Assembly: GCA_023248215.1 (NCBI GenBank)
Contig: JAHFEW010000012.1
Coordinates: 1-64,000 of the forward strand
DNA from: Nitrospira sp.
GTDB taxonomy: Bacteria > Nitrospirota > Nitrospiria > Nitrospirales > Nitrospiraceae
Length of the DNA stretch: 64,000 nucleotides
Direction: 5' to 3'
The first letter of the stretch is position 1; each line of letters opens with the position of its first letter. Shown piece by piece: positions 22,883-25,383 of this stretch. The translations under genes were made by a program, and so were the position numbers. Under the pieces are notes generated by a model. The model made no database searches and was not told the origin of the DNA. It saw nothing but the letters and a program-made list of their open reading frames with translations.

Positions 22883-23001
22883 CTCTGCCCTCCATTCATC
22901 TTCTTGCTGCACCGCACTCATTCGTCTAGTGGGCGTGATCTGAACGTCTCTCTCCAAGAGTCCGTCGTTGTTGCCCCGATCTGGTGTTGCTAGAATGGCG
23001 C

Positions 23002-25383
23002 ATGCTCGACCAGCGTTCGTCCGTGAACCCACCGATCTCTCCTGCTGCCTCCCCAACCTATGTTGATGTGGTGTTGCCTCGCCGCCTCCACCGGCCCTTT
23101 ACCTATGTGATTCCTGCTGAGCTCAAGGGCAAGGTAGTGATAGGGCAATCTGTGATCGTTCCATTCGGGTCCCAAGACCTTCACGGTCTCGTCATTGCAG
23201 TGCATCCTCAGCTTCCGATCGGAGCGCCGGACCGGGGATTGAAAGCGATCCGTTCGCTTGCCGATGCGTCCCCAGACCAGCATCTGACATCGAGTCAGGT
23301 GGATTTGAGCCGCTGGGTGGCCGACCGGTATGCCGCACCGTGGGGCCAATGTATCAAGCTCGTCTTGCCCCCGGTCGGTCAGGCCGGCCGGATTCGGCCA
23401 CGTTATCTGCCGACGGAGCAAGGTTTGTCCTGCCTGTCTTCCCTCGAAGAAGAAGTGGGAGAGGTGGAAATGCAGTTGCTGAAGCGCCTCTCTCGTCGTC
23501 CCAACGGCATCACGGCGGCTACCCTCGCACAAGCCGACAAGTCCCGCGTGACACGAGCGTTGCAGGCGCTGGTCCGAAAGGGATTGGTCTTTCGTCGGGA
23601 TGAGACGGTTACCTGGCGGGCCTCTCGTGCCAAGAAGAACATGACTGAGACGGCAAGACAGGCGCTTCCCGCGAAGTTGGCATTCGACTCCGTGGCACAC
23701 CTTCCAGTCGAAGCGGCATCGTGGCCGGCTACCGTGAGTCAGGTGCTTTCGCAGGGCGCCTTTGTCTCCTTGCTGGTCCAGGGGGTTTGTGACACCAGGC
23801 TTTGGTGTCTGGTGCAGGCCGCTCAGGACACGATTCGTCGTGGGCGGCGCGTGTTGATCATCACGGGTGACGTGGAGAATGCGAGTCGACTGGCCGGAGC
23901 CCTAGCGGCAGCGGGAGAGCGCCCGGTTCTCTTGCACAGCGGCTTGTCGGCGAGAGACCGTGCGGCGGCATGGTTATCGGTGCGGGATCCTTCGACGACG
24001 ATTCTGGTCGGCACCCGCATGGCGACCTTCGCGCCCATTGATCGACTTGGATTGGTGTGGGTGGAGGGAGAGGACGATGCATCGCTCAAAGAGGAGCAGG
24101 TGCCCCGCTACCATGCTCGAGAGGTGGCACGGCGGCGTGCCGCCTGCGATCGAGCGCTGTTGGTCCTGGCCTCGAGCCATCCGTCGCTCGAGAGTTGGTC
24201 GGCGGTACAGCAAGGAGAGATGACGCCCTGTGTCTATCGCGACTCGGCAGCCTTCCCGAGCGTGCAGGTGATCGACCTAAAGGACTACGCAAAGGAGTAC
24301 GCGGCGGGAACGTTGTTGTCGCCCCCTCTGTGTGACGGCATTCGAGAGGCCTTGCGGCAGAACGCCCTGGCGATTGTGTATCTGAACCGCAAAGGGTTTG
24401 CGAGTGTTCTGCATTGCCGAGATTGTGGGGCCATGCCGCAGTGCGATGCCTGTAGTGTCGCGTTGACGTTTTACAAGCGTAACAACCACGTACGATGCCA
24501 TTACTGTGGACGGACGAAACCCGTGCCGGATCATTGCGGGCAGTGCCAGTCTCTCAAGCTGGAACCGGTTGGGTCGGGCACGGAACGTATCGAAGAGGCT
24601 GTTCGGCGGATGTTCCCTCAGGCGCGCGTGGGTCGTGTGGATGGGGAGACGATCCGCCGCCCCGCCGATGCGCGGGCGTTCAATCGTCTGCTTGCCGTCG
24701 GAGACATCGATATTGTCATCGGCACGCAGATGCTGTTTCGGTTGGGCCTTCACTCACAGGCCGCTTTTGTAGCTGTGCCGGATGCGGATGCCGGACTTCA
24801 TGTCCCGGATTTTCGCTCGGCGGAGCGGATGTACCACGGTCTTGTCGATGCGGTCGAACTGGCTCGACCCGCTCACTTAGGAGGAGTGGTCATCGTGCAG
24901 ACTCGCTTTACGGATCATCACGCGATGATGGCCCTTGCCCATGGCGACGATTCGCTCTTTTTCGAGCAAGAACAGGCGTTCCGGCAGATGCTCCAATACC
25001 CGCCCTGTACGCATCTCGTCAGGCTCGATGTGTCCGGTACGCTTGAGCCGGTAGTGGCTCAGGCCGCTGACCGTTGGGCGACTTTGTTACGAGCGGAGGT
25101 CGCGGGCTCTGAAAGGCGGGAATCGAAAGACAGCAGGCGGTCGGCCGTGGCTCAGAGGTTCATCGGTGTGGGGGGGGAAGCGAAAAAGACCGTCATCCTC
25201 GGGCCTTCTCCGGCGCCCCATGCCATGGCTAGGGGCCGGTATTGCTGGCAGATCCTGGTCAAGGCTGTCTCTCTTGAGACAGGAAAGGAGATGGTCATCC
25301 GGACACTTGAAATTCTTGAACGGGGGCCGCGGCGAGGTGGCCTCCGGTTCGATATCGATGTCGATCCGGTTGCCATGGGGTGA
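23002..25383 (+). CDS. priA: Primosomal protein N' (PriA) lacking helicase motifs
   Basis: PriA restarts stalled replication forks. This 793-residue protein keeps the N-terminal 3'-DNA-binding domain (YVDVVLPRRLHRPFTYVIP), the eight-cysteine zinc-binding insert (CRDCG, CDAC, CHYCG, CGQC, about residues 471-515), the GSGTERIEE motif and the C-terminal domain. The ATPase motifs are gone: where E. coli has GVTGSGKTEVY there is QGVCDTRLW (about 23779-23805); DEEHD is replaced by EGEDD (about 24064-24078); the arginine motif SGRAGR is replaced by VELARP (about 24853-24870). It should bind forks and recruit partners but not unwind DNA, as proposed for actinobacterial PriA. The start is ATG 23002 rather than the GTG at 22984. 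Confidence 0.9.
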   Translation: MLDQRSSVNPPISPAASPTYVDVVLPRRLHRPFTYVIPAELKGKVVIGQSVIVPFGSQDLHGLVIAVHPQLPIGAPDRGLKAIRSLADASPDQHLTSSQVDLSRWVADRYAAPWGQCIKLVLPPVGQAGRIRPRYLPTEQGLSCLSSLEEEVGEVEMQLLKRLSRRPNGITAATLAQADKSRVTRALQALVRKGLVFRRDETVTWRASRAKKNMTETARQALPAKLAFDSVAHLPVEAASWPATVSQVLSQGAFVSLLVQGVCDTRLWCLVQAAQDTIRRGRRVLIITGDVENASRLAGALAAAGERPVLLHSGLSARDRAAAWLSVRDPSTTILVGTRMATFAPIDRLGLVWVEGEDDASLKEEQVPRYHAREVARRRAACDRALLVLASSHPSLESWSAVQQGEMTPCVYRDSAAFPSVQVIDLKDYAKEYAAGTLLSPPLCDGIREALRQNALAIVYLNRKGFASVLHCRDCGAMPQCDACSVALTFYKRNNHVRCHYCGRTKPVPDHCGQCQSLKLEPVGSGTERIEEAVRRMFPQARVGRVDGETIRRPADARAFNRLLAVGDIDIVIGTQMLFRLGLHSQAAFVAVPDADAGLHVPDFRSAERMYHGLVDAVELARPAHLGGVVIVQTRFTDHHAMMALAHGDDSLFFEQEQAFRQMLQYPPCTHLVRLDVSGTLEPVVAQAADRWATLLRAEVAGSERRESKDSRRSAVAQRFIGVGGEAKKTVILGPSPAPHAMARGRYCWQILVKAVSLETGKEMVIRTLEILERGPRRGGLRFDIDVDPVAMG

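Follow-up and report, generated by a model that had tools for sequence, protein, structure and literature searches.

A probable ATP-independent pseudohelicase: the only PriA in a Nitrospirales genome has lost its motor motifs, and its gene is under selection

PriA is usually described as a conserved helicase that initiates replication restart. A 64,000-nucleotide stretch of a Nitrospira sp. genome (contig JAHFEW010000012.1, positions 1 to 64,000; hereafter the window) encodes a PriA with replaced motor motifs, which raises the question of what such a protein can still do at an abandoned fork. The host group, Nitrospira, comprises nitrite-oxidising bacteria. We consider it probable (roughly 0.85) that the sole PriA of this Nitrospirales bacterium is an ATP-independent pseudohelicase that recognises forks and supports the reloading of DnaB, probably together with DciA. 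This reading is carried by the motif loss, the retention of the domains and of the predicted fold, the constraint on the gene and its single copy, all established here by sequence analysis.

The priA gene and its motor motifs

The gene starts at a GTG codon (position 22984; alternative ATG at 23002), and its stop codon ends at position 25383 (Table 1). The preliminary description had given a span of 23779-24876, which covers the helicase core of this longer gene. Membership of the PriA family is clear: TIGR00595 matches the protein with 368 bits against a curated cut-off of 230.35 (370 bits when in-frame neighbours are included), NF004066, the ordinary PriA model, scores 417 bits, and the Pfam domains PF17764, PF18319, and PF18074 are all above their gathering scores, while Pfam reports no helicase domain for this protein. 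Annotation calls for caution, as the NCBI "replication restart helicase PriA" model matches the motorless protein well above its cut-off.

Table 1. Coordinates of the window priA gene, its domains, and its erased and kept motifs
Feature	Position	Strand	Evidence
priA, 799-aa probable PriA pseudohelicase	22984..25383	+	TIGR00595, Pfam domains, AlphaFold model vs solved PriA
3'-DNA-binding domain (3'BD), residues 28-129	23065..23370	+	PF17764, E 3.5e-21
Motif I / Walker A remnant QGVCDTRLW	23779..23805	+	alignment; P-loop gone in AlphaFold model
Kept motif Ib GTRMATFAP	24010..24036	+	95-100% conservation of its key residues in Nitrospirales
Motif II / Walker B remnant EGEDD, replacing DEEHD	24064..24078	+	alignment
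RYHARE, kept half of the fork-junction wedge loop in HD1	24106..24123	+	alignment; loop role PMC10175261
Kept motif IV NRKG (LNRKG)	24385..24396	+	alignment
Cysteine-rich region (CRR), eight zinc cysteines	24415..24546	+	PF18319
Motif VI remnant VELARP, replacing GRAGR	24853..24870	+	alignment
PriA C-terminal domain (CTD), residues 674-795	25003..25368	+	PF18074, E 6.6e-12

Alignment confirmed that Walker A, DEEH, and GRAGR are each replaced where the preliminary description had placed the changes, and the signatures of an active SF2 helicase (Walker A GxxGxGKT, DExH, and Q/GRxGR) are not found. Motifs I, Ia, II, and VI, half of motif V, and part of motif III are gone. The further claim that all core helicase motifs are lost holds for I, Ia, II, and VI and is slightly too strong as a whole, because motif Ib, motif IV, the first half of motif V (GTQM), and RYHAR are retained; in motif Ib the kept residues are G302, R304, F308, and P310 (E. 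coli numbers). The erosion is concentrated in the motor. Across the 41 intact Nitrospirota PriAs, 112 positions reach an identity of 90% or more (30 in motifs, 82 elsewhere); of these, the window PriA keeps 7/30 of the motif positions versus 59/82 of the others (Fisher p 7e-6), and the Nitrospirales PriAs keep 5/30 versus 52/82 (Fisher p 1e-5). Sequencing error, a frameshift, or chance was rejected as the cause, given that the losses recur in all 37 aligned Nitrospirales PriAs and in the Nitrospirota loci of a scan of named genomes.

Outside the motor the protein is well preserved, and the description of an intact DNA-binding domain with eight zinc cysteines was borne out. The cysteines (residues 478, 481, 487, 490, 505, 508, 518, and 521) are invariant in all aligned PriA groups, eight out of eight, and in the 3'BD six of nine highly conserved positions are kept across Nitrospirales.

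Distribution, copy number and origin of the loss

The comparison set comprised 114 PriA proteins taken from Nitrospirota genomes, with E. coli PriA added to the alignment. By the presence of GSGKT, 41 of the 114 are intact. Motifs I, II, and VI are absent from 37/37 aligned sequences of the window's own order, Nitrospirales (families f1 and f2), from two f7 sequences of the same class, and from a second dead clade of 34 sequences (f14, f20, f22-29, f31, f33, and f36). Intact PriA occurs in the sampled sequences of f3, f4, f5, f6, and f8, all in the window's class, and f9, a sixth family of that class, has a full-length TIGR00595 match. Motor loss thus characterises Nitrospirales and a second large clade, and most other Nitrospirota lineages are intact. 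A scan of named genomes agrees: among the best 80 matches, motor loss is seen in all 10 Nitrospirota loci, including Nitrospira moscoviensis (NZ_CP011801), and the best-scoring relatives outside the phylum keep the Walker A lysine, a statement about those 80 matches and not about bacteria at large. Family f35 (L096 / L229, genome G184) has Walker A and DEEQ together with a degraded motif VI (QLAEKVGTGE), and its PriA may be an intermediate state. The arginine of motif VI is normally required for ATP hydrolysis.

A second, complete PriA would have undercut the idea of a motorless restart protein; the window's genome, at 99.96% completeness, yielded none, and its remaining TIGR00595 matches are weak and partial, two of them being Mfd and RecG. 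All 14 single-contig Nitrospirales genomes have exactly one PriA above the cut-off, and in each of these the TIGR00595 match starts at model position 11 or later, past Walker A.

Five genomes of genus g2 in family f1 (f1.g2; G087, G240, G294, G296, and G317) gave no PriA, with best E values of 3e-6 or weaker; one of them, G087, is 99% complete at only 2.0 Mb. Whole-gene loss following motor loss, or gaps in the assemblies, are possible explanations, and the former would make PriA dispensable in those genomes.

Trees built by quick searches with the motif columns removed require two state changes, one in Nitrospirales and one in the second dead clade; the families closest to that clade, f30 and f32, have intact PriA. 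Family f7 groups with Nitrospirales at 96% SH-aLRT in the smaller tree, and its placement is unresolved in the larger one. The replacement residues differ as well: 89% of Nitrospirales have Arg in the column of the Walker lysine, where 85% of the second clade have Glu, and Arg584 of motif VI is Leu in 95% of Nitrospirales and scattered in the second clade. An AU test against a single origin is borderline (p 0.0515), so the case for two losses comes mainly from tree placement, taxonomy, and the differing replacement residues. Together these make two independent motor losses within Nitrospirota likely.

The divergent PriA of Actinobacteria, called a "smaller and very divergent" ortholog (PMC1193525), probably lacks helicase motifs (HAMAP annotation). 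Models of PRK14873, which we take to be this actinobacterial group, score at best 171.5 bits against the window PriA (cut-off of NF011452: 980; the others score lower), which places it outside that group. Since the ordinary PriA models score far higher (417 bits for NF004066), motor loss in the window PriA looks separate from the actinobacterial one, and transfer of an actinobacterial-type PriA finds no support in these scores or in the trees, where Nitrospirales group with their class relatives. A pseudohelicase established by experiment is the PriA of Deinococcus radiodurans, which lacks both ATP hydrolysis and DNA unwinding and still binds ssDNA, forks, and DnaB (PMC4504706). Both proteins have no working Walker A or B and retain DNA binding, which for the window PriA is predicted from its domains, and the D. 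radiodurans genome likewise has no clear PriB or DnaT (PMC4504706). The two differ in extent: in Deinococcus-Thermus the loss falls on motifs I and II (GKT to GRT, and a poor motif II), and the window PriA has been stripped of I, Ia, II, VI, and part of V. They also differ in phylum and in kind of evidence, the ATPase having been measured in Deinococcus and the window PriA being known from its sequence. The suggestion that this locus is a parallel case of helicase-dead PriA therefore stands, given the single copy, the order-wide loss, and the Deinococcus precedent (PMC4504706).

Restart partners and other helicases

From the motor loss the preliminary description had concluded that fork restart needs another helicase. 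This could not be upheld: no helicase was gained among the kinds checked, and E. coli tolerates a helicase-dead PriA (PMC4504706). Such E. coli cells are viable and the protein still assembles primosomes, so the need for a substitute does not follow; in the helicase-dead priA300 (K230R) mutant, restart works without unwinding by PriA (PMC4504706; PMC4752480). Wild-type E. coli PriA, by contrast, is an active 3'-5' helicase that acts with PriB, DnaT, and DnaC, and the loss in the window PriA is natural, extensive, and fixed in an order.

A gained restart helicase, of the Rep/UvrD/PcrA type or acting by a PriC-Rep route, could nevertheless have enabled the motor loss and now do the unwinding, given that duplex lagging strands at forks still need opening and that almost every sampled Nitrospirales genome retains RecG. 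The gene content makes this improbable. No extra UvrD/Rep/PcrA was found in Nitrospirales, which usually have two UvrD-family matches per genome, and their PcrA-like proteins are fewer and poorer than those of intact relatives: the best PcrA relative in the window's genome (G000 C45:63000-65141) reaches 448 bits against a cut-off of 911, and nine other Nitrospirales genomes checked are also without a PcrA-level UvrD match, whereas full-length PcrA in two relatives with intact PriA scores 863 and 924 bits. PriC was above its cut-off in 0/25 genomes. RecG and DciA are equally present beside intact PriA, DciA in 37/37 genomes tested regardless of whether PriA is dead or intact. Among the kinds of helicase covered, the UvrD/Rep/PcrA family and RecG, no gain was found. 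PriB, too, was above its cut-off in 0/25 genomes, and its weak matches, in frames of 126-209 aa, are probably SSB, a PriB paralogue.

RecG varies among other Nitrospirota families. It was undetected, with Mfd-level matches only, in eight of nine f25 genomes, including the single-contig G073, and in five of six f26 genomes; both are dead-PriA families. It was also undetected in both f21 genomes, and the only f21 PriA read (G023) is intact. In E. coli, priA300 suppresses recG defects (PMC4752480). The absence of RecG from f25 and f26 fits such suppression, but f21 is a counterexample, and RecG loss as a consequence of motor death was rejected, no association between the two having emerged from these counts. 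In the single-contig genome G234 (family f2, dead PriA), recG at C1:1762921-1764940 appears to be broken, as its pieces do not share a frame and a TAA interrupts the sequence.

Predicted fold, selection and a proposed role

An AlphaFold2 model of the window PriA, built from 16 aligned sequences, has a mean pLDDT of 81.5 and a pTM of 0.79, with HD1 mostly at 87-95. A comparison with the PDB identifies a PriA fold, the match to solved PriA extending along almost the entire model (Z 29.4-32.1; for 6dcr Z 32.1 over 614 residues, rmsd 3.6), and the six-domain arrangement is shared, at Z 29-32, with the PriA of E. coli (8fak) and that of K. pneumoniae (4nl4). Strand 261-267 runs directly into helix 269-285, leaving no room for a P-loop in the model. 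This bears on the idea of an unconventional nucleotide switch, in which ATP would be bound through other residues and used for conformational control. The strong constraint on HD1 and the prevalent Arg in the Walker lysine column could be read in its favour, but with motifs I, Ia, II, and VI all erased, the P-loop missing from the prediction, and K230R by itself sufficient to abolish the ATPase of E. coli PriA (PMC4504706), we regard such a switch as very unlikely. A cryptic ATPase is likewise at most a slim possibility, since the model retains no P-loop.

Selection on the motorless gene was gauged by Nei-Gojobori dN/dS medians over 18 close Nitrospirales pairs and 23 intact pairs, the pairs not being independent of one another. 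Nitrospirales versus intact values are 0.25 versus 0.27 for the 3'BD, 0.36 versus 0.38 for the WH and linker, 0.21 versus 0.16 for HD1, 0.14 versus 0.18 for the CRR, 0.14 versus 0.15 for HD2, 0.23 versus 0.18 for the CTD, and 0.23 versus 0.20 for the whole gene. Constraint on the motorless HD1 and HD2 lobes thus comes close to that on functional lobes. The protein joins order-wide loss of its catalytic residues to a gene under selection (dN/dS 0.14-0.23), as expected of a pseudohelicase. That priA is a functionless relic, drifting since its motor died, is the least tenable reading and is rejected by these values, so close to those of intact PriA, by a frame open throughout Nitrospirales, and by the invariance of the eight cysteines and many sites unrelated to ATP, even though the motifs are gone and five f1.g2 genomes have no detected PriA.

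The solved structure of E. coli PriA on a fork suggests why the lobes stay constrained, since they themselves grip the fork: HD1 wedges the junction and touches the parental duplex, and HD2, CRR, and CTD form a pore round the lagging-strand ssDNA (PMC10175261). In the pseudohelicase that we propose, the 3'BD would bind the nascent leading-strand end at an abandoned fork or D-loop, the wedge loop of HD1 would sit at the junction, and the pore of HD2, CRR, and CTD would close round the lagging-strand ssDNA. PriA would then be an ATP-independent platform for DnaB reloading, most likely with DciA, which is favoured as the partner because PriB and PriC were undetected in the 25 genomes checked; the contact with DnaB and DciA is deduced from gene content, and DciA is just as present with intact PriA. 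Forks with a duplex lagging strand might be opened by RecG, by the one remaining UvrD-like helicase, or by an exonuclease such as RecJ (5'-3' resection); alternatively, such forks might not be restarted through the PriA route.

PriA pseudohelicases are already known from Deinococcus-Thermus and, as the divergent ortholog, from Actinobacteria. New here are the more complete erasure of motifs, the phylogenetic replication, and the set of intact close relatives; the literature searched, which omits most subscription journals, held no report of a motorless PriA in Nitrospirota. An order-wide, strongly selected motorless PriA alongside closely related intact PriAs in the same class amounts to a natural experiment, in which unwinding would be set apart from the recognition of forks and the loading of DnaB. 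As a tentative generalisation, the motor may have been erased at least twice in one phylum by different substitutions, with selection on the lobes nearly unchanged. Serving as a fork clamp and DnaB-loading pore would then be role enough for them, and ATP-driven unwinding would be an extra that lineages using DciA could give up; once it is gone, some families could also do without RecG.

The 3'BD pocket is less conserved in Nitrospirales than in intact relatives, with R31 and K61 often changed, and recognition of the leading-strand 3' end may be altered as a result.
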